NCBI RefSeq assembly: GCF_964199755.1 | Contig: NC_133903.1 | Coordinates: forward strand, 5,535,001 to 5,599,000 | Source of the DNA: Larus michahellis | Taxonomy: Eukaryota > Chordata > Aves > Charadriiformes > Laridae | Reading direction: 5' to 3' | DNA: 64,000 nucleotides | Shown: positions 30,112 to 50,049 of the stretch, one piece after another | Position numbering within the stretch: position 1 is the stretch's first letter | How the letters are laid out: each line of letters begins with the position of its first letter | Position numbers and translations under genes: made by a program | Notes under the pieces: generated by a model | What the model was told of the DNA's origin: nothing | The model's database searches: none | What the model saw: the letters and a program-made list of their open reading frames with translations, nothing else

Positions 30112-30593
30112 ATAACGAGCCCGCGCCATGCAGTCCTTTCGAGAAAGGTGTGGTTTCCATGGCAACCAGCAGAGCTACCAGCCGACTTCACAAGATACAT
30201 CACGCCTGGAGAATTACAGGCATCAAAGTCAGGCAGGGCCGAACTGCGAGCGGCAGAGGCTGGTGGCGAAGGAGTACTACAGTCAGCAGCAACTGCCGTA
30301 CTCGGGCTATGAGAACAGCGCCGTGGAGAAATACCACCGGGGAAACAAGCAATTAGCAGGGCAGCATCTGCAAGGCAGGCCGGCCTTTTCCAATTACGCC
30401 GTGCAGGAGAACAGCCCCTACCCGGCCCGTTATTCAGGGGACGAGAGCTTGCAGGCCTGGGGTGGCCAGCCGCAGGCGCTGCCCGGTGGCGTGGCCAAGT
30501 ATGAGGACAGCCTGATGAAGAAGACGGCGACGTTGGCGGGCGGGCGGGCATACCATGAGCCGGCGGCCGCCCCGCTGCCCTTCCGGACTCACT

Positions 30594-30642
<49 letters not shown>

Positions 30643-33600
30643 GCAGCAGCAGCAGCCCGCGCTCCCCTACCCCAAGCTGCAGCGACAGAAGCTGCCAAAT
30701 GACGTCTCCTCGCCCATGCCCTTCTCGCAGAGCCCCCACTTCGGGCAGCACTCACAGTCCTTCCCCGCCTCCTCCACCTACTCCTCGGTGCCGGGGGGCA
30801 GCCAGCCGGCACACTCCTACAAGAGCTGCACGGCACCCTCGGGGCAGCCACCGCTGGAGCGGCCCCTGGGCAGCGCTGCCAGCCTGGCCCCCGGCCCCCG
30901 CGTGCCCAACCTGCATGGCTACCAGCCCAACCGAATCGGCTACGAGCAGCCCCCGCAGCCCCCGCCGCAGCCCCCGCAGCCGCCGCCACCGCAGCCACCG
31001 CAGCCGCCGCAGCCCCCGCAGCCGCCGCAGCCCTTGCAAGGGCGGCATCATGCCCCAGAGACCCTCCACTACCAAAACCTGGCCAAGTACCAACATTACA
31101 ACCAGCCAGGCCAGACCTACTGCCAGGGCGACGCGCCGCCCGTCCGGACGCCGGAGCAGTACTACCAGACCTTCAGCCCCAGCGCCAGCCACTCACCGGC
31201 TCGTTCCGTTGGCAGGTCCCCATCCTACAGCTCCACTCCCTCCCCACTGATGCCCAACCTGGAGAACTTCCAGTACAGCCAGCAGCCGCTGAGCGCTGGC
31301 TCCTTCCCGGCCGGCATCGCCGACCACAGCCATTTCATGCCACTGCTGAACCCTTCTCCCACCGATGGGACGAGCCCAGATGCTCAATCCGGGAACTGCA
31401 AGAACTTGCAGAAGGAGAAGCTGCCCGAAAACCTGCTGTCGGACCTGAGCTTGCAGAGCCTGACGGCGCTCACCTCCCAGGTGGAGAACATCTCCAACAC
31501 CGTCCAGCAGCTGCTGCTCTCCAAAGCGGCTGTGCCCCAGAAAAAGGGCATCAAAAACCCGGCGAGGACCCCCGAGCAGCTCAAGGGGCAGCACTGCAGC
31601 CCTGAGAGCAGCACCTACTCAGCAGAGCAGGTGGGGACCCCCCTGTCCGACCCACTCAGCACCCCCCAGTCCGTCCACGCCGAGACGCAGGACGCCGACT
31701 ATCTCAGCGGGTCAGAGGACCAGCTGGAGAGGAGTTTCCTGTACTGCAACCAGAACCGCAGCCCTGCCCGCGTCAACAGCAACTCCAAGGCGAAGCCTGA
31801 GTCGGTGTCCACCTGCTCTGTGACCTCCCCAGATGACATGTCCACCAAATCGGACGACTCCTTCCAGAGCATTCACGCCAGCCTGCCCCTGGAGACCTTC
31901 ACCAAATACGTGACCAACGAACGGGACTGTCCCCGGCTGCTCCTCAGCGCCCTGTCCCAGGAGGAGCTGGCTTCTGAGATCATTGTCCTGCAGGATGCCA
32001 TCAGTGAGAAGGCAGACAAAGCCTGGGCCAACTCTCCCATGCTGAGCAAGGAAGCCACCAAGTCCCCGTTCCAGCTGGAGAACCACCGGCCCTGCCTAGA
32101 CTCCATGGTGAAGGGCACCTGGCCCAGCCAGGGTGACTCCAGCACGCTCACCGAGCCCCTCAAGCTGGACAAGGCTTCGGGGGCCAGCGCGGGGAAGGAC
32201 TTTGGTGAGGAGGTTTACGAGGGTCCCCAGGTGGAGTTCACAGCCGCTGAGACCAAGGATGCGCTGAAGGAGACTGCCCCGCTGGCCTTCAATTCCAAGC
32301 CCAGCATCCCAGCGGCGACATCGAGCGCAGGGGCCGCCAGCTACAGCTGCTACTCAAACACCACCGCCAACTCGGTGGGGTCTGAGAACGCCATGGAGCA
32401 CTTCGAGTGGCCGGAGGAGAGCCTGGGTGAGGCATGCCTGAGGTGGAAGGATCTGCAAGCCACCGACCTCCCCAAGGGCTTGTTCCCCAGCAAATTGGTG
32501 GGCTCCTGCAAGGAGAAAAAAAATGCCTGTGGCTTGGATCTGTGCGATGGTGAGCAGCCGGCCAAGAGTGAGCCGGCCCGGGACTTTGGCCAGCAGGCGA
32601 TGGAGGAGGAGGAGGAAACGCTGACCTACGATGAAGCAGCAAAGGCAGACAGCGAGAGGTGGCTGCAGGACACCCGGCATTGCTGCTCGACAGGGGACTT
32701 CAGCGAGATCCCCATCATCTCCTCGCCAGAGCTGAAGGAGTCGGACCTGGAGGCGGAGGAGTACTCCTCGCTCTGCGAGCTGGCCGGCTCGGAGCAGAAG
32801 TCGGTGACATATGACGCCTCGCCGCCCAAGCCCCCGGAGATGCCCGCCGTGCTGTCCTCCAGCGAGGTGCCCGTGTCCGCCGAGGAGACTGTCAGCACAG
32901 TAGAAAAGGAAAGCTCAGCTCCAGCCTCGCGCCTCTCCGGCCAGTCCGTCATCCTGCTGGGCCCTGCCGTGGGCACAGAGACCAAGGTGAAAAGCTGGTT
33001 CAAGTCCTCCCTGCCCCACATCCAGCCTGAGGAGGAGAGTGGTGGAGGGGAGACGTCCCACACGGAGGTGGCCAATGCTGAATCCGCCCCGTCAGTCACA
33101 GTGAAGCAGCAACTCACCCCCGAAAACACGCTGGGGAACACGGAGCCTATCTCACGGGGCAAGAGCCTCCGCAACAAGAGGGTCCACTGCCGGCTGCCGG
33201 AGGGAGACGGCCCTGGCAGCGCCGTGCCAAGTCCTTTCGATGACCTGCCGGCAGCCGGCGGCGTGGCCAGCGTCTGCCTCGGGCCAGACGGCCAGGCGGA
33301 GATACAGAGCAAGAACGCCCACAGCCAAACGCCCCGTTTTCCAGCTGAGGGTCTGCCGGCACGCATGTGCACCCGCTCCTTCACTGCCCTCGCCGAGCCC
33401 CGTGCCCCGGCCCCGCTGGAGGGGCTGAAGGCCCCCGCGCACCAGGAGAAGCTGGGGAAGAAGCCCGCTTGCGGCGTGAAGCAGCGGGTGGCTTTCAAAG
33501 CCAGGAAGCGCAGCAGTCGGCCGGCCCCCAAGGTGGTCCAAAACGCCAGCGATGCCACCCTCCTGGTGCCGAGCTTGGTGGCGGCAGAGGAGGTGGTGGG

Positions 33601-35749
33601 GCCAACACCGACGGAGGGGGACGTGGTGGAGGCTGGGGAGAGGGACCAGCGGTCGATGATCCTGCGCTCCCGGACAAAGACACAGGAGGTTTTCTATACC
33701 AAGAGGCGGCGGGGCAAGCGGGCGGCCGATGTCCGGCTGAAGAACTGCAAGGCGCCCAAGAAGCTCATCTCCAACAACCATCTCCCACCCGCCTTCAAGC
33801 TGGCAGCCCCGGGCAGCCCCCACAAGGAGGGCAAGGTGGGCGCTCGGATGAAGCTGCCCAAAGCAGCGCCGGGCATGGGTGGCAAGATGTCCGAGCGGCC
33901 CCTGCACTCGCTGAAGAGGAAGTCCACCTTCATGTCCCCCATCCCTGCCAAGAAGAGGAACCTGGTCCTGCGGAGCAACAGTGGTGGCGTGAAGGAGGAG
34001 AAGCCAGAGGGCCCCCCCAGTCTCTTCAAGAAGATGCCTGTGGCCAAGAAGGTGAAAGCCAAGCTGCCCCCCAAGAGCTCCGGCGAAGCCGTCCCCAAGC
34101 CCCCCCCGCCAAAGGAGGCCCCTGATGTCTGCATCAAGATCACCTCCCGGGCGGCCTTCCAGGAGGCCACCAAGACCAAAGTGCTGCCTCCCCGCAAAGG
34201 CCGCGGCCTCAAGCTGGAGGCCATCGTCCAGAAGATCACCTCACCCAACCTGAAGAAGTTTGCCTGCAAACCGGCAGCCACGGCAGCAGTGGCGGCCACG
34301 GTGGCTGCCTATAGCACCTCCCTGAGCCCGGTGGGGGCGGAGAGGGAGCGGGCGGTGAAGCACAGCGGGGTGGCCCCAGTGGTGGGTGACGTGAGGCTGC
34401 CCAAGCCGGCGGCGGCACAGAAGGTGCCCGCCATGCCGACGGCCGAGCAGCTCTGCCGAAACCCCAACGGCCGAGCACCGAAGGGCAAGCTGGGCGGTGG
34501 GAAGAAGCTCTCCATCGATGGCTGCCAGGGGGAGGCCTGTGCACTGGCCCCTGGGGCACAGCCCAGCTCCACTATGGTGGCCAAGAACCTGGGGCTCCTG
34601 CCCAAGAAGAGGAACCGTAAGGGCAAAGCGGCGGCGCTGGGCATGGCCAAGGCACCCCTGGGCCCCGCGCCGCCACCACCGCACCCCCGGGAGCGTGCGG
34701 CCGGCCCGGGCGGCGGGGAGGAGGCGCCGCGGGAGGGCAAGAAACCAAAGACCGAGGAGAAGGAGGTGGGGGGCAGCGATGGCCCCCCTGAGGGACGCCC
34801 CACTACCGGGACGGCGCGGGGGCCTAAGCCGCGGGCCAACCACTCCAACTACAATGGCTACTCCAAGCGGCAGCGGAAGCGTCTGGCCCACGGCAAGGCC
34901 AAGGCGGTGCCGGCGCGGTGCAAGAGCCGCGGCAAGCGGCGGCGGCAGGCCCAGCAGGCCCCGCTGCTGCATCCCGCCGAGCCCGAGATCCGCCTCAAGT
35001 ACATCTCCTGCAAGCGGCTGCGGGCGGACAGCCGGGGACCCCCCTTCGTCCCCTACGTCCGCGTGGAGCGGCGCGGCGAGTTCACCACCGCCTGCACCGT
35101 CGTCAACTCACCCGGCGAGGAGGCCAGGCTGCAACGGGGACCGGCTGGGCCCGCGCCGCGACCGCGGGCAGCCCTGCCCGCCTCCTCCACCATGCACATG
35201 GGGCCGGTGGTGTCGAAGGCGCTGAGTGCCGCCTGCCTGGTCTGCTGCCTGTGCCGCAACCCCGCCAACTACAAGGACCTGGGGGACCTCTGCGGGCCCT
35301 ACTACCCCGAGGACTGCCTGCCCAAGAAGAAGTCGCGGCTGAAGGAGAAGGCGCGGGCAGAGGGGCCGGGCGAGGACGCCATCCCGCCCGCCGCGGCCGA
35401 GCGGGCTCCGCGAGGGGCAGAGGGCGGCTGTGGCGCCGGCAGCAAGGCGACGCGGCCGGAGGTTGCCGCCGAGGCGGCCAAGCAGAGCTCGCTGCGTTCC
35501 AGCCCGCGGGGCATGTTCCGTAGGCTGCAGAGCTGCTACTGCTGTGACGAGAGGACAGAGGGCGAGGAGGCGGCCGAAAAGCCCCGGCGGCATGAATGTC
35601 ACAAGGCCGAGTCCCCGCCGCAGGAGCCGGCGGGTGACACGCAGGAGCACTGGCTGCACGAGGCCTGTGCCGTATGGACCGCTGGGGTTTTCCTGGTGGC
35701 GGGGAAGCTCTACGGGCTGCAGGAGGCTGTCAAGGCGGCTGCCGACCTG
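30112..35749 (+). CDS. RAI1: RAI1 large coding exon (about 97% of the protein)
   Basis: A single exon of 1874 codons starts after a polypyrimidine acceptor ending in cgcag at 30111 and closes at a GTAAGA donor after the Leu codon at 35749. The order is: Q/Y/P-rich N-terminus; a CAG-encoded glutamine tract at codons 157-176 (Q14-P-Q5); a Pro/Gln repeat at codons 274-302; a Ser/Pro-rich middle; basic regions; and the first half of the extended PHD finger from about codon 1703 (C-x2-C-C-x-C, then CGPYYPEDC and [10 protein letters not shown]). The apparent open frame continues to 35875, but those last codons are intron. The exon is strongly GC-biased at third positions, which produces many long antisense shadow ORFs. 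Confidence 0.96.
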
Positions 35750-37873
35750 GTAAGAGCTCGGCTGCCCGCCCGACACGGCATGGCACAGCATCACACTCCG
35801 AGGCGGCATCTCCCGCCAGCCTCCTTCAGCCAAAGCCGATCCTGCGGCTGCACCTCTGTCCGGGATGAAAATTAATAGGGTCGGCCCCGACGAGTCGCCC
35901 TGGGAGAGTGGGACGGGTGTTCGGGCACCATCCGCCCTGCTGGCTTCCCGCGAGATTTGTGCTGCCGCGTCTCTGATAACACCGAAAAACCTCCCTCTTA
36001 GGCGTAGAAGCATATTTGTGTTGTTATGCTTTGGGAGGGCGGCAGGGCCCCCCCCCGCCGGGACCATGAGGATGCTGAGCCCAGTGGGTCACATCCCCTG
36101 GCCCAGCTGTGTGTCGCAGGGGTCGGCTCGGAGCGGGACAGATGCAGCCTGGTGAAGGCAGGATGGGAGATGAAAATGGGCACGATGTGGCCTGATGCCA
36201 CAATGATGGGCAGCAGGGGAAGGGGAGACGGAGGGAGGGGATGGCCCTGCCCTGCTCCTCTCCCAGAGCGAGAGGAGCACGGACACATCGAGTGAGCAAA
36301 ATAGGGAGGATGCTGCTGGGAGACAGCCAAGGGGACATAGGGCGTTTGTGCTGGGGAGAGGGAGGGGACAGCCACCTGGCAGAGGCCAGGCAAGGGGTCT
36401 CCAGCAAGCCCCCCCGGTACCAGGTTTGGGGCTGGCCGTATTCCCAGGCGTGCGTGCTCGCGGCATGGCTGGCTGAAGGCTGCTGCCCTCTCCCTGGCCA
36501 CACTGCGGGGCCAGGTGCTCCCATCCCTGCAGCACCCATTGGGGATGGGGCAGGAGATGGGGAACACCGCCGTCCTCCATCACCACTGCCACACGAGCCA
36601 TGGCACGGCCCAGGCCATGTCCCTTCACCTCTGCTCCTCCTGCCACATGGAGAATGGCTGTGGGCTCAGGTGCCATCCAGAGGAGCAGTACAGTGGGCAG
36701 AACCCTCGTGTGTGGCTGCAGATGACCAAGCGAGAGGCACAGCGTCACCTGCGGTGCACCGGTGCGGGAGGAAGGATGCTGCCCAGGGGGAGGCAGCGTG
36801 GGGCTGGAGAGGCACAGGGACGCCAGTGCGTTCCCCTCGCAGTGGGGGCCGTGGGGATGCTTTGCTCCTACGCTGGGCTCTGACGGGGTCTCTCTGTCTT
36901 TCCACATCTCTGCTTCCCTGCTCTGAATTCCCGGGTGCGTTTAAAGAAGTGCTCGAGCTGCCAGCAAGCGGGAGCCACCGTGGGCTGCTGCCAGAAGGGG
37001 TGTCCCCACACCTACCACTACGCGTGTGCCGTCGACACAGGTGAGCCCGGCTGTGGGGACAGGGGTGTGGGGACCCCCTGGCACCCTCTGACCCAGGGGA
37101 CCGGCCACTTTGCAACACTCCAGCCCACCCAAGGCCAGGGTGGGCTCATGGCTCCCTGCCAGCCGGGATGGCGATGCCCCCTGCACCAGCAGTGCTGGCT
37201 GGTGTCCTGAGTTTAGCTGGCCTCAGCTGAACCCTTCATGCAAATGGTGCTGCTTGTCCGGATGGTGGTGGGAGGCCGTGGAGGACACTGTGTCCCCACT
37301 GCTCGGGGACAGCCATCCTGCAGCGCAGGGACTTCCCTGACACGGCTTTCTCCTCTCCTCGCAGGTTGCTTATTAACCGAAGAGAGCTTCTCTCTGAAAT
37401 GTCCCAAACATAAGGTAAGTCCAGAGCCCCCCGCGCACCCCGCAATGCCCTGCAGCCCCCTGGGGTAGGGGGACCCGCCTTCGGACCGTGTCCCCATGGG
37501 GACACCCACAGCACACCCACCCTGGGTGCTCAGCCCTGTGTGGCATGGGGCATCGTGTCCCTGGGGGACACCAGGCTTCCCAGAAGCGCTCCACTGTGGG
37601 GGCAGATGTGTGGGTGCTGGGTCTGGGACCCCCAACCGGGCTACGGGGGTTTTAACCCCTTCCCCTGGGTGATGATGGGGTGGGGTGGGGGGGACGATAA
37701 TTGAACCCGTGCTAAAAGCACTGCATCTCGGGTGGGCACCCGGTTCTTCACGGGTGGGCAGGGTGGCTGCTGATGGGGACACCCCCGCCAGCCCGGGGAC
37801 CGAACGCCGCAGCGGGACCACCGGGCTGACACCCCCCCCCCCTCGCTTTTCCCTGCAGAGGCAGCCGGTGTAG
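30128..37873 (+). CDS. RAI1: RAI1, retinoic acid induced 1, complete coding sequence in four exons
   Basis: The coding exons are 30128-35749, 36947-37040, 37365-37414 and 37859-37873, spliced in frame with GT-AG sites to 1926 residues (human RAI1 is 1906). The protein starts [12 protein letters not shown] and keeps blocks shared with mammalian RAI1, such as [44 protein letters not shown] and [21 protein letters not shown]1 is a nuclear chromatin-associated regulator of transcription, dosage-sensitive in humans (Smith-Magenis and Potocki-Lupski syndromes). Several Lys/Arg clusters between about residues 1200 and 1650 are compatible with nuclear localisation. The acceptor of the start exon is at 30110-30111, so only 16 bases of 5' UTR lie in this exon and upstream non-coding exons must exist. 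The second exon could instead begin at 36950, losing one Lys, because two AGs lie side by side. Confidence 0.97.
35750..36946 (+). other. RAI1 intron between the large exon and the ePHD exon
   Basis: 1.2 kb of GC-rich intron. I see no repeats or RNA genes. ORFs across it on both strands are short and lack homology that I recognise. Confidence 0.8.
36947..37873 (+). CDS. RAI1: RAI1 C-terminal exons completing the extended PHD zinc finger
   Basis: Three short exons (36947-37040, 37365-37414, 37859-37873) complete the zinc-binding fold begun in the large exon. They encode [22 protein letters not shown] and CPKHK, the Cys/His ligands of an ePHD/ADD-like nucleosome-binding module. The last exon encodes only RQPV before the TAG at 37871. 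Phases are 0, 1 and 0 across the three introns (35750-36946, 37041-37364, 37415-37858), all consistent. Donors are GTAAGA, GTGAGC and GTAAGT. Confidence 0.93.
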
Positions 37874-39847: not shown

Positions 39848-39853
39848 AATAAA
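39848..39853 (+). terminator. RAI1: RAI1 polyadenylation signal AATAAA
   Basis: Canonical hexamer in AT-rich sequence, followed about 20 bases later by a T/G-rich stretch (cgattgttttgg). It is the last such signal on the + strand before the convergent SREBF1 3' end. Confidence 0.8.
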
Positions 39854-41248: not shown

Positions 41249-44200
41249 CTAGCCCGACGTGACGGTGGTGCCGCTGCCCAGCTTGATGATCATCTGCTGG
41301 CAGTCGTGCAGCGTCCGTTTGTCACCCAGCTTCTCCAGCGTGCGGGCGGCCTCGGCCAGCATGCCCACGCGCTGGCCCGGGCCCGAGAGGAAGCTGGGCG
41401 GGAGGTAGCAGCAGGCCAGCAGCAGGGCCTCGGCATGCTCCCGCGGCGTCGGGTGACTCTCCGGCTCACCGGCTGCAATGGGGGGAAAAGTGGGGGTCAG
41501 TCCCAAGGGGTGTCCAGAGAAGCCACCCGCCCTCCCTTGGGTGCTCCGGCACGACCATGGAGCCATCCACCCGCCCCAGGGCAGATGCCACCACCAAAGC
41601 GTGGTCAGGAAGCCCCTGGACCCCACCACCCAACTCTGCTGGGGTGCTGCGGGTGGGAAAGGGGGTGGGAAGAGGGGTGGGAAGAGGGGTGGGAAGAGGG
41701 GTGGGAAGAGGGGTGGGCTCCCACCCTGTATCCCACCTGGTGGGGGGTCTCCCACCCCGTGTCCCACGTGTGTGGGGGGGTCTCCCACCCCGTGTCCCAC
41801 CTGTTTTGTTGCCCTGCACCCCTCTCCTCCGCAGGCTGCGGTCCAGCAGCTGGTGGGTGCGCGTGGGGCTGGCCCGGGCCATGAGCCTGGCGGTGGCTTC
41901 GTGCAGGAACACCTGGAGGTGGCGGGGAGAGGGGGGGGGGGGACAGTGAGCATGACAGGGCGCAGGGGACGAGGGGACCTGCTGGGACAAGGGGTGGGGG
42001 GCTCACCCGGCGCATGGCGGGGCGGAGGGTCTGGGCCAGGCGCCGCAGGCTGCTGAGGTCCTGCTGGAAGCCGCGGAGCTCGATGGCGGACGCCTGGTAG
42101 AGGCAGCTGCGCTGCTGGCTGGCACTCATCTGCTGCTGCCACAGGTTGGTGCGGGTGACGAGGAGCAGGTCGCACAGCAGGAGCTGCACCGCCTGTAGCG
42201 GGGAGGGGGGGGGGGGTGGCAAGGGGAGCTGGGTGAGCAGGGAGACGGAGGGACGGAGGGACGGGGGGGCCGAGGAGGTCCCAGCGGGCAGGCGCTGCTG
42301 CGCGGGACCCCCGCCGGGCTGCATGGCAGGGGCATTGCACTCCCAGTCTGACACATGCAATGCAACTACAATGCACCCCCGCGAGGGCCGGGGGCACCTC
42401 CCGCCAGGGCCGGGGGCTCCCCCCCAGGGCGGGTGCCCACCTTACCCGTCCCCCTGCCCTCCCCCACCCCCCCAACCCCGGCTCACCTTGTCGATGGTGC
42501 CCTTGGGGGGGCTGCCGAGCTCCAGGCTCTCCCGCAGGCAGCTGCTGGCCTTCTCGCAGTGGCTGAGGCTGGCCTGGCTCCCGTCCTGCTTGCTCAGCAT
42601 GGCGCGCACGGCCCTGAAGGAGTGCAGGGCGGCGCGGGGCAGGGGCTTCCTGCAAGGTGGGGGACGACACAGTCACCGCTGGCTCCTCGCTGGGCATGGC
42701 CGTGCCCCCCCCTTCAGTAGACACCGGCCACCACAGCCTCGGTGCTCTGACTGCGCTTGCACGGGCTGTGCCGACCCGAAGAGGAGGGAAGGCGTGCGAT
42801 GAGCTGTCACCCCCCCTCCCCATGGCCCTCTCCCCGTCCCCGATGTCCCCAGCACTCACTCAGAGCTCTGCAGCGCCCGGGGCATGGTTTCCACAAGCGG
42901 GTAGAGGCGCTCGGCCCCCTCCTCATCTCCCTGAAGCCAGTGAATAACTGTGCCAATGATGGACGCCCACCACTTGGACACGGGGTCGGTACCTGTGGGG
43001 CGGGAGGGAGACGGGAGCGGGGCATCCACCAGCCCCATGGCCCGCCCCACACAAGTGTCCCTGGTTGGGGGGGGACACGTCGGCCTCACCTGTGACGGCC
43101 GCCAAGCTGGAGCTGATGGAGGGCGCAGGGCCGGGCACGCCGCTGGCATCGGAGCAGCCGTTGAGGAGCTGGAGGTATTCCAGAGCATTGGAAAAGCGCC
43201 TGCCGGGAGAGGGGCAGTGAGTGGGGACAGCCCCACGCTGGGCGGAGGGAGCGGGGTGCCCACCCTGGCGCTTACCCCTCTCCCTGGGCAGTGGGGCGGC
43301 CGGGCTCGGGCATGGCCACGCAGCACAGCGCCTTCTCCAGGAGGTGCTCGCGGAAAAGCTGGGTCACCTGCGCCAGCGGGTCCACTGCGGCACAGAGGGG
43401 CGGTGAGACGGTGACAGAGGTGGGGTGAGACCCCCGAAATGGGGGGCTGGGGGTGCTGGGTTGGGGGCGTTACCTGGGTTGCCGGCGGAGCTGTAGATGG
43501 TCTCCCTCGGGACGCCCTTGACAGCCCAGTCCCCGTCGACGAAGAAGCGGTGGCCCAAGGGGTGGCAGAGCCACTGCATGGCGGGGGGCACGGCCCCGCC
43601 GTGGGACAGGGCCACCCGCCGGGCGCTGCAGAGGAAGGGGCGCTGCGGGGAGAGCGGGGAGTCAGGGGGGGACGACCCAAGACTGGGTCACACATGACCC
43701 CCTCCCCAGCCCCACACGGAGGGGGCTGCCCCGCACTCACGGCCAAGAAGTGGAAGCAGCGGTGCAGGCTGGCCTTGACCCGCAGGGCGGCTGCCACGTA
43801 GATCTCGGCCAGGGCGGCCACGGAGACGGCGTCACCGGCGCACTCGGCAAGGTTGACGGCGCTCAGCGCCAGGTTGATGGCCAGCAGGTGCCCCCCCGCC
43901 TGCTTCCCTGCGGGGACAGGGACGGGGGGCTCAGGGAGGGGGTATCACGGGCATCCCATCCCCCAGCCCGTCCCCACGGTGCGGGGCCGTACCGGCGAGG
44001 TGGAGCTGGTGCAGGCGGTGGTAGGTCATGGCGGCGTCGCGGGCGCTCTGACGGACGTGGGCGGGGGGCGGGGGGTCGGGACGCAGCCCCCCGGCGCGGG
44101 CGGCCAGCCAGCGTCCCACCCAGAGGCGCTGGAGCAGGTGGCGCAGCAGGGTCCAGAGCAGGCTGCAGGCCAGGTCCCCGTGGGAGGCGGGCAGCGGCCG

Positions 44201-47200: not shown

Positions 47201-50049
47201 CCAGCATCACGCCGGGCTGGGGCTGGCTGCTGGGCACGGCCGCCAGCTCCTCCTTGACACCCGGGGTCGGTGCCGGCAGGAGTGGGGCTGGGGGCTGCGG
47301 GGCGAAGGCTGCCATCCCGGGGGGCCCCGGGTAGTTGCTGCCGGTGGGGGCGGCGGGGGGAGTCTTGCTGGGCCCCAGGTAGGTGCCGAGGGTGGCCGGT
47401 GGTGGGGGGAGCCCCGGGGGCACGGCGCTGTCAGGGGCACCGAACGGTGAATCAAACAGTCCCGAGAAGTCATTGTCCGGCGTGTTGATCAGCTGGAGCA
47501 TGTCTGCAAAACAGCCCCGCCCCCCCCACGCCGTCAGCAGCTGCCCCGGCCCCGCACCTCCCAAGGGGCCCCCAAAGCCCCAGGGGTCCCCGGGCTGGCC
47601 CCATGCTGCCCACCCCAACTCAGCACTTTGGGGACAAATTCCCCATAACCCAGAGGCAAAACTTCCCCGAGAGCCCAGGAATCCGCTGTGCTCTGCTCCT
47701 GGCAGCCTCCCGGCCACCCTGCCGGTGGGGAAACTGAGGCACGGCGCTCGCAACCGGGGGTGTTGTGGCCTGGCCACCAGCATTCAGAGGTTTCCAGACC
47801 GGTCTGGGGGTGGCAGGGTGAATCTCAGCCTGTTTCTGAGGTCAAGGGGGGCAGAGAGGGGCTTGTGCCAGCTCGTTCATTTATCCCCTGATGGAAACCC
47901 CGACAACCCCCGAAGCAGGGGGTGCTCAGGCAGGGACAGAGGGGTGGCCCACCCGGGATGTCCCAGCCCCCCCGTGCCAGACGTGCCTGCCCATGGCACC
48001 CCCCGGGGAGAGACGTGGGTGCCCCGCGATGTCCCAGCGCCGGGCAGGGAGGAGGCACCGGGATATTTTAAAGCCATGTTCTCGCCTCCTCCCCGCCGCT
48101 GCCCGCGCCAGGCCTGGAGCGAGGCCGGCGATGGGGTGATGCGACTCCGCCAATCGCCGCCCGCCGCCCCCAGACAGCCCCGCGGCCGAGCCAAGGTGAG
48201 CCCGGCAGCCGGTTACTCGCGGGCACCCTGCCGTAACCCGCCCGCGGTTACTCGGGGTCAGCCACCGTTAACCCCTTCGCCCGGTGTCCCCTCGTCCCCC
48301 CTGCCCAGCCCCACATCCGTCCAGCCCGCTGTGATGCGCCACACTCGATGTCCAGCGTCCGGAGGGGACACCCTGCAAGGACCGGGGTCTTCGCGCAGCC
48401 CCGTTTCCCCCCAAAGACATCCAGCCCCTCCCTGCGCTTGGGGGTTTCCTCCTGGGGGGCTCTAAACCTAACCCCCTCCCTGCTCAAGAGACCCCCAGGC
48501 TCCCCCGTGATCCAGGGGCAAGAGAACAAAGTCTGGGGGTGCAGAGAGGGGGTGCTCCCTCCTGGCCCCCCCTTCCTGCTGCCCAGCCCCGGGGGTGGGT
48601 ACGGCTCCTCCAGCCGCCCGTATCCACCAGATATTTCTGTCCTGTGGCACCTGCTGCCACCTGTGCCATCAGCACAACAGGGGCACCCAACGGTGCCACG
48701 GCTGCCCCCACTCTGCTGCTCTGGGACGTGGGAGCCCGTGGGGCAGAGCCACACGGCTGTGGGTCCCGGCAGGTCCCAGCACCCACACCCCTGGATGTGC
48801 ATCCCACAGTCACCCCCCCGGGTGGGCAGAAGGACAAGGGACGGCTGTAGGCACCCGGGGACCAGTGGCAAACCCACAGCACGTGGATTGTCAGGCTACG
48901 TGGGGGAGCCGTGGGGCACGGGGTGGCACAGATGGCCGTGACGCAAAGGAGCGTGGCAAAACCCCACGGCGGGACACCCTCACCCCTGGCCGAGGGCCAG
49001 GGAACCCGATTTTTGGCTAAAACCGCGGCAACGCTGCACCCAGCGCCGCCAAGACCTCGGTGGCACGGTGGTGGGGAGCGGGTCCCCTTGGGGAGCGGGT
49101 CCCCCCGGTGGCATCCGCGCCCCCCGGACCCCCAGCTCGGCGGGGAGGTGGGTGCTGAGGGGTCCCACCCCCAGGGACGCTCCGTTCGGCCGCGGGGCCG
49201 GTGTGGAGCCTCCCCCCCCCCTCCCCGCCCCCATGCCGGTTGGGCGGCTCGGGGAACCCAGGCGTCCTGGAGGGAATGACCGGGAGTAACCCCGCCGGTG
49301 ACGTCACTAAGGGGGTGGGGCTACAGACGACACGATGCTGCCGCCGGCGGGGGCCCCGTCGGGGCTGTCCCGGCACCAGCACCTCCAGCCCGGGGTCCCG
49401 CTGTCCTGCTCCCCCTCGGGACCCTGCTTGTCCCCGAGCCCCCCCCCGCCACGAACCGGCCCCCGGTAACGGAGCAAGCCCGAACGGCCCGGCCCTGCCC
49501 CGACTCCGCGCTCCAGAGCAGCTCGGTGTTCCCCCCACGCCGGGTCCGGCACCGAGCCCGGTGTCTCTCCGGTTGTGCCCCGGCCGCGCACCGAGCCCGC
49601 ACCGAGCCCGTTCCTCCGGCCATGCACCGAGCCCGGCTGTGCACCGAGCCCCGGCTATGCACCGAACCCGCTCCCGCCGGCCATATACCGAGCCCCGGTT
49701 GCGCATTGAGCTCGCCGCCCCGGCCGTGTCCCGGTCCCCGGTTCCCTGACCGTGCACCGAGCCTGATCTCCCCAGCTCCGGCCATGCACCGAGCCCGGTC
49801 CTGGCCATGCACCGAGCCCGGCTACCGCACCGAGCCCGGTCCCCCGGCCACGCACCGAGCGCCGGTTCTGCCCCCAGCCCGGCCCCGGCCATGCACCGAG
49901 CCCCGGTTCTGCCCCGCTCGCCGCTGCCCGGGTCGGGACGCACCGTCGATGTCGCTGAGCAGGGCCGTGTCGATGTCGCTGGCCCCGGAGAGGCCGAGGG
50001 ACGGCGCCAGCCCCTCCAGGGCCGCGTCGTCGAAGGCGAGGGAGCTCAT
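41249..50049 (-). CDS. SREBF1: SREBF1, sterol regulatory element-binding protein 1 (1a-type start), complete in 19 exons
   Basis: The exons in transcription order are 50049-49944, 47503-47120, 46948-46779, 46704-46564, 46484-46266, 46178-46064, 45976-45765, 45275-45071, 44545-44361, 44254-43993, 43907-43741, 43642-43474, 43384-43276, 43199-43090, 42992-42860, 42649-42487, 42192-42007, 41912-41801 and 41472-41249. All have GT-AG sites and compatible phases, giving 1123 residues (human SREBP-1a is 1147). The product is an ER membrane protein with a cytosolic bHLH-zipper activator at the N-terminus, a two-helix membrane hairpin and a C-terminal SCAP-binding domain. After transport to the Golgi it is cut by S1P and S2P, and the N-terminus activates fatty-acid and sterol synthesis genes. 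The first exon encodes an acidic start ([14 protein letters not shown], then LLSDID), matching the 1a isoform. Confidence 0.97.
41645..41720. repeat. 12-bp tandem repeat in SREBF1 intron 18
   Basis: About six copies of ggggtgggaaga, followed by two longer copies of a ggggtctcccaccccgtgtc-type unit up to about 41800. Confidence 0.85.
42316..42337 (-). ncRNA. Predicted miR-33-3p arm
   Basis: A 22-base arm opposite the 5p. Its 3' end ATGCAGCCC resembles miR-33b-3p (GTGCAGCCC) rather than miR-33a-3p. Confidence 0.75.
42356..42376 (-). ncRNA. Mature miR-33-5p sequence
   Basis: Identical over 21 bases to vertebrate miR-33a-5p. It differs from mammalian miR-33b-5p at the two bases just after the seed (TA here, CT there). 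Confidence 0.92.
44361..45976 (-). CDS. SREBF1: SREBF1 exons 7-9: phosphodegron and membrane hairpin with protease sites
   Basis: Exon 7 (45765-45976) carries [11 protein letters not shown], the FBW7 phosphodegron conserved in SREBPs, and a Ser-rich acidic stretch. Exon 8 (45071-45275) encodes the first transmembrane helix (about residues 470-490) preceded by DRSR, the S2P-type juxtamembrane signal, and then a short lumenal loop with RRSIM at 507-511, the likely S1P site. Exon 9 (44361-44545) encodes the second helix (about 526-550) and the start of the regulatory domain, [18 protein letters not shown]. Confidence 0.93.
44560..45060. repeat. Degenerate tandem repeat in SREBF1 intron 8
   Basis: Imperfect C/A-rich units of about 20-30 bp around caccccaacagcctccaccc fill nearly the whole intron. 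Confidence 0.65.
45300..45545. repeat. Degenerate tandem repeat in SREBF1 intron 7
   Basis: Short units of the ggcatggggcacaggg type, repeated with variation. Confidence 0.6.
46064..46484 (-). CDS. SREBF1: SREBF1 exons 5-6: bHLH leucine-zipper DNA-binding domain
   Basis: Exon 5 (46266-46484) encodes the basic region and helix-loop-helix (about residues 305-340: [20 protein letters not shown] and onward). Its tyrosine at residue 319, in EKRYR, is the SREBP-specific replacement that allows binding to SRE as well as E-box sites. Exon 6 (46064-46178) encodes the second helix and zipper ([32 protein letters not shown]). Confidence 0.97.
46564..50049 (-). CDS. SREBF1: SREBF1 exons 1-4: acidic activation domain and Pro/Ser/Gln-rich linker
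   Basis: Exon 1 (49944-50049) gives the acidic helix ending DTALLSDID. Exon 2 (47120-47503) continues [20 protein letters not shown] and then becomes Pro/Ala/Ser rich. Exons 3 and 4 (46779-46948, 46564-46704) include PQIQQVP and [20 protein letters not shown], close to mammalian SREBP-1. The junction codon of exons 1 and 2 is G|AC, so any alternative first exon must also end in phase 1 with a G. Exon 1 is separated from exon 2 by a 2.4-kb intron that holds a candidate internal promoter. Confidence 0.95.
48059..48077 (-). CDS. SREBF1: Candidate SREBP-1c-type alternative first exon (six codons plus one base)
   Basis: On the - strand, an ATG at 48077-48075 sits in an excellent start context (AACATGG). 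Six codons (MALKYP) are followed by a G and then GT at 48058-48057. Splicing to exon 2 at 47503 would give MALKYP-DMLQLIN, the same length and phase as the human 1c start MDCTFE-DMLQL. The first residues differ from mammals and the donor (G|GTGCCT) is weak, so this is an inference supported mainly by the promoter-like sites just upstream and the matching phase. Confidence 0.45.
48131..48140 (-). promoter_or_regulatory. Sterol regulatory element of a candidate SREBP-1c promoter
   Basis: On the - strand this reads ATCACCCCAT, differing at one end base from the classic SRE ATCACCCCAC. It is 54 bases upstream of the candidate 1c ATG and 10 bases downstream of a CCAAT box, as in SREBP-responsive promoters. 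Confidence 0.7.
48150..48154 (+). promoter_or_regulatory. CCAAT (NF-Y) box next to the SRE
   Basis: CCAAT on the + strand (ATTGG in the SREBF1 sense). NF-Y is the usual co-activator at SREBP sites, and a GC-rich Sp1-like stretch lies beside it. Confidence 0.6.
48211..48225 (+). promoter_or_regulatory. DR4-type LXR response element, copy 1
   Basis: GGTTAC-tcgc-GGGCA: two nuclear-receptor half sites with a 4-base spacer. In the SREBF1 sense it reads TGCCCGCGAGTAACC, similar to one of the paired LXREs of the mammalian SREBP-1c promoter. Confidence 0.6.
48246..48260 (+). promoter_or_regulatory. DR4-type LXR response element, copy 2
   Basis: GGTTAC-tcgg-GGTCA. In the SREBF1 sense it reads TGACCCCGAGTAACC, very close to the mammalian SREBP-1c LXRE (TGACCnnnAGTAACC). 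It lies 35 bases from the first copy. Confidence 0.7.
49541..49910. repeat. Minisatellite in SREBF1 intron 1 next to exon 1
   Basis: About 15-18 degenerate copies of a roughly 20-bp unit built on ccatgcaccgagcccggt. It ends about 35 bases from the exon 1 donor. Confidence 0.8.

Follow-up and report, generated by a model that had tools for sequence, protein, structure and literature searches.

A mir-33 hairpin with a miR-33a-type 5p sequence in an SREBF1 intron of Larus michahellis

The SREBF1 gene and the hairpin in its intron 16

The window analysed here, a stretch of 64,000 nucleotides from contig NC_133903.1 of Larus michahellis, carries the SREBF1 gene on its minus strand (positions without a contig label refer to the window). 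Exon 1 ends at 49944, and our gene model covers coding exons 2-19 (18 modelled exons, 47503 to 41249), which join into an uninterrupted reading frame of 1087 aa. These exons have AG acceptors throughout and GT donors, except for the last exon. The identity of the gene was established by its bHLH domain, for which the best PDB match was SREBP-1a (119.6 bits, versus 83.8 for SREBP-2), and a Pfam scan of the gene found HLH. Counting exon 1, exon 16 (42487-42649, -), part of the 1087-aa frame, and exon 17 (42007-42192, -) flank intron 16 (42486-42193, -), a phase 0, GT-AG intron of 294 bp and 75.5% GC. This intron contains, on the sense strand of the gene, the hairpin described below, as had been stated in a preliminary description of this DNA that placed it between these two exons. 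Outside the hairpin the intron reaches 81% GC.

Two features of the plus strand lie beside the gene. An uninterrupted frame of 1915 aa with glutamine and proline runs (30128-35875, +) converges on SREBF1. Its start resembles that of RAI1, the neighbour of SREBF1 in human, where the two genes also converge; a Pfam scan of the frame found no family. An AATAAA at 39848-39853 (+) is probably the 3' end of the gene that converges on SREBF1.

The core of the hairpin (42381-42314, -) is a full-length match to the Rfam mir-33 covariance model RF00667 (model positions 1-69), with 57.6 bits and an E value of 8e-11, the curated gathering cut-off being 50. The 5p sequence, GTGCATTGTAGTTGCATTGCA, lies at 42376-42356 (-) and includes the seed TGCATTG. 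It is followed by the terminal loop and upper stem (42355-42338, -) and by the 3p arm (42337-42316, -), whose predicted ends were placed by analogy with miR-33b-3p. In agreement with the preliminary description, all 21 bases of the 5p are those of miR-33a-5p. This was the only site with three or fewer mismatches to the 5p in the window, and none of 100 shuffled windows contained one. As expected, no exact match to the 5p was found in collections of viral, bacterial and archaeal contigs.

The existence of a pairing 3p arm was also borne out, since 21 of the 23 Rfam consensus pairs are formed (two are broken), compared with 23/23 in the hairpin of SREBF2, and the minimum free energy (MFE) folds show one long stem. 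Thus, when the hairpin region (42290-42410, - strand) was folded, much as the preliminary description had proposed for 42290-42400, we obtained a single stem from 42389 to 42306, consisting of the core and 8 further basal pairs. The basal helix has 9 pairs (42389-42381 with 42314-42306), one of which already belongs to the core as its last pair. The arms also pair when the whole 294-nt intron is folded, with 14.9 expected pairs (16.0 in the SREBF2 intron). The 68-nt core has an MFE of -33.0 kcal/mol (z -2.72; 7/500 shuffles equally good) and a 93-nt stretch one of -53.9 (z -3.74; 1/500), while the 121-nt stretch was weaker (z -1.67; 14/200). Note that folding energy alone is unconvincing in DNA so rich in GC; it is the sequence and covariance matches that are convincing. 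Regarding processing motifs, the hairpin has TGT at its apex and CNNC at +16, the latter easily found by chance at this GC content; a basal UG is absent at -14, the nearest being at -20. A mirtron was rejected: in this 294-bp intron, 105 bases separate the core from the donor and another 121 lie between it and the acceptor.

The SREBF2 copy and the comparison of the arms

A search for mir-33 in the 1.405-Gb genome (616 contigs), in which scoring covered 67 of the 201811 first-look candidates, gave two matches above the cut-off among those scored: the window locus and C1:55082954-55083022, with 79.1 bits. A match below the cut-off (38.1 bits) lies on the opposite strand of the latter place, and a third copy in the genome is unlikely. 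The C1 gene matches our SREBF1 model in 14 tblastn pieces (residues 185-1086); its bHLH scores highest with SREBP-2 (113.9 bits, versus 105.1 for SREBP-1a). A shorter, one-exon piece of this gene scored higher with SREBP-1a (56.8) than with SREBP-2 (33.7); the probable cause is that the SREBP-2 entry does not cover all of that piece. In addition, the reverse complement of the reverse cloning primer from a paper on the miR-33 of chicken SREBF2 matched the C1 intron at 20/20 positions. As a side observation, the nuclear genome also contains a cytochrome b copy of mitochondrial origin (C38:16886248-16886805), which, read with the standard code, has 7 TGA and 3 TAA. Its best PDB match is 1bcc, a chicken entry (233.1 bits, versus 196.9 for the next).

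The two mir-33 introns are both of phase 0 and interrupt the protein at the identical position; in SREBF2 the residues VLNS precede the intron and MIQLLACDLLLSLRTSLWQ follows it. The SREBF2 intron is much longer (1229 bp versus 294 bp), and comparison of the two detected 24/24 identical bases at the 5p region (E 7e-9) and no other significant similarity, the next best having an E value of 0.44. The hairpins therefore share their 5p region and their place in the gene, but differ in loop, 3p arm and flanks, and the SREBF2 copy has the higher Rfam score. The 5p region has been kept in SREBF1 in an intron that is 81% GC outside the hairpin, a pattern to be expected if the mature RNA is under selection. 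Taken together, a shared phase 0 position and a clear likeness confined to the 5p fit descent from one ancestral SREBP intron, with selection on the mature RNA.

Since the preliminary description had combined a miR-33a-type 5p with a miR-33b-type 3p, both arms were compared with human miR-33b, using the primer and oligo sequences published in PMC8595470; miR-33b-3p is given there, and our 20-nt miR-33b-5p reference consists of two printed parts that we joined. The 5p agrees with this reference at 18/20 positions and differs only at nucleotides 9 and 10, where the SREBF1 copy has TA, as in miR-33a, in place of the CT of mammalian miR-33b. The claim that it lacks the post-seed CT is thus correct. 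The claim on the 3p held only in part: its last 8 bases are those of miR-33b-3p, but over 22 bases it agrees at 17, exactly as the SREBF2 3p of this bird does (17/22), so that the arm is not specifically of miR-33b type and this label is a weak one. The two 3p arms of the bird agree with each other at 16/22 positions. Because the 3p matches are equal for both copies, orthology with mir-33b rests on the host gene and the intron. The bird locus shares with the mammalian SREBF1 mir-33b its host gene, sense strand, seed and the last 8 bases of the 3p, and differs from it in the two 5p nucleotides and elsewhere in the 3p. The mammalian host intron is numbered 17 in human SREBF1 and 16 in pig. In short, the SREBF1 locus of this bird is orthologous to the mir-33b locus, and it is not a source of miR-33b-5p.

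Origin of the SREBF1-hosted copy

Our results make it highly probable, judging from the sequences compared, that this is an SREBF1-hosted member of the mir-33 family, the orthologue of mammalian mir-33b, inherited with its intron from a single SREBP gene that preceded the duplication, and that it is a working locus with a miR-33a-type product. According to this model, the ancestral SREBP gene with its mir-33 intron would have given rise, by the vertebrate duplication, to SREBF1 and SREBF2, each with a mir-33. The hairpin would be transcribed as part of the SREBF1 pre-mRNA and then cut by Drosha and Dicer, whose action and motifs are an established mechanism. The 5p strand would be the one loaded, and it would be identical to the product of SREBF2.

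The view that the SREBF1 copy is older than mammals, put forward in the preliminary description, was supported by the matching phase 0 introns and by the published rabbitfish srebp1. In the passages of PMC5027541 that deal with fish, intron 16 of rabbitfish srebp1 hosts a miR-33 confirmed by small RNAs, with a miR-33a-like product, and in salmon both precursors, pre-miR-33a and pre-miR-33b, yield a single product with the sequence of miR-33a. The rabbitfish locus resembles the bird one in its host gene, in the intron number as counted there and in its miR-33a-like mature product; expression was shown in the fish, while the bird locus is known from its sequence and the fish one is likened to it by description. 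As regards the change in miR-33b-5p, the preliminary description had proposed that it is derived and arose in mammals. The letters of this bird, rabbitfish and salmon favour the first part. The second was not shown, since the same source, on the basis of miRBase, has distinct mature miR-33a and b from amphibians on, and thus the CT change cannot be placed on the mammalian branch from these data.

The presence of miR-33 varies among vertebrates, and we count this against our explanation. Thus, rodents lack miR-33b (PMC8103095), and zebrafish and carp are said in the passages of PMC5027541 to be without miR-33. For trout, the passages on the subject place miR-33a in two srebp-2 genes and are silent on miR-33 in srebp-1. 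Since loss is tolerated, as the rodents indicate, the SREBF1 hairpin might be a decaying remnant of the ancestral mir-33, inefficiently processed, with SREBF2 supplying all the mature miR-33. Its Rfam score below that of the SREBF2 copy (57.6 versus 79.1), the two broken stem pairs and the missing basal UG would all agree with this. We consider decay improbable, however, because the stem still folds within the whole intron and the 24 bases of the 5p region are retained exactly as in SREBF2, which is not expected in an intron that is otherwise unrecognisable.

The identity of the 5p regions could also be read as the trace of a recent copy of, or gene conversion from, SREBF2, instead of inheritance from the ancestral SREBP gene. 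This was rejected and must be regarded as very improbable: beyond the 24 nt of the 5p region the identity is lost, with diverged 3p arms and no significant similarity in the remaining introns, and the miR-33 in intron 16 of rabbitfish srebp1 (PMC5027541, in the passages cited above) also argues against it. Finally, a chance hairpin or an annotation artefact could be suspected, as GC-rich DNA folds readily and the z-score of the 121-nt stretch is just -1.67. The covariance-model match and the shuffle test with the 5p refute this possibility, and the matching intron position in the paralogue SREBF2 speaks against it as well, so that its probability is negligible. We therefore retain inheritance of the hairpin together with its intron.

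Avian miR-33 in the literature and its possible meaning

The avian SREBF1-hosted copy of miR-33, a microRNA that regulates lipids, corresponds as expected to a locus that is already known and had been described for both birds and fish. The passages of the 2016 paper PMC5027541 place avian pre-miR-33b in srebp1 introns, with a single chicken accession that may correspond to the SREBF2 locus. In chicken, gga-mir-33-1 is assigned to chr1 in the relevant part of PMC2777939, and by 2010 a second locus had been named, gga-mir-33-2, with both arms, gga-miR-33 and gga-miR-33* (PMC3005926, in the part that deals with it). We infer that gga-mir-33-2 is the SREBF1 locus; what it has in common with the gull locus is being a second avian mir-33 besides gga-mir-33-1. 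A literature search for names of MirGeneDB style for mir-33 found none, and one for other avian mir-33 names led to cli-miR-338b in a pigeon paper, a false match, and to a review that denies miR-33b in chicken.

Other sources speak against an SREBF1-hosted copy in chicken. Passages of reviews from 2021 (PMC8002044) and 2026 (PMC12837823) deny miR-33b in chicken, and nonetheless the table of the former lists Gga-miR-33b and that of the latter miR-33-2-5p in chick embryos. Shao et al. 2014 (PMC3953336) aligned chicken SREBF1 and SREBF2, and the passages on this alignment report miR-33 from SREBF2 only. The same work, in its passage on expression, found no correlation between chicken miR-33 and SREBF2 in a set of 10 tissues (R -0.268, P>0.05). 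In the results excerpted from PMC6523616, liver miR-33 of delayed-fed chicks was about two-fold lower from D1 to D3, and SREBF1 was 2.8-fold lower on D1 and 6.7-fold lower on D2.

We tentatively propose, as a possibility of less than even chance, that much of the miR-33 in bird liver comes from the SREBF1-hosted copy, and that avian miR-33 measurements partly report SREBF1-driven lipogenesis. This presumes that chicken has the same SREBF1 locus. If true, it would explain both why chicken miR-33 does not follow SREBF2 over the 10 tissues and why it falls alongside SREBF1 in the delayed-fed chicks. Note that these two observations fit the proposal and prove nothing, as an SREBF2-driven change or turnover fits them equally. 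An assay of the 5p cannot separate the two loci, and the avian miR-33 measurements that the chicken papers cited here assign to SREBF2 may combine the output of two loci whose nutritional control differs. What the finding offers is a correction of the review statement on chicken miR-33b and a reason to re-read the avian miR-33 data. SREBF1 and miR-33 are also physically coupled in this bird, as in humans and unlike in rodents.

Finally, we looked at the target ABCA1, which was located with a 31-residue ABCA1 end (match at C41:55708097-55708186, 87%). The stretch after the stop codon, which ends at 55708091 (-) within C41:55702000-55708300, was assumed to be the transcribed 3' UTR. Sites found here cannot tell the SREBF1 from the SREBF2 locus, because the 5p is identical. 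The sequence CAATGCAA, a full miR-33 seed site with its A, occurs three times, 115, 120 and 130 nt downstream of the stop codon, the first two sites overlapping. As many CAATGCA were present in just 3/2000 mononucleotide shuffles of the 3.5 kb that follow the stop, and these sites suggest that the link from miR-33 to ABCA1 has likely been kept in this bird.
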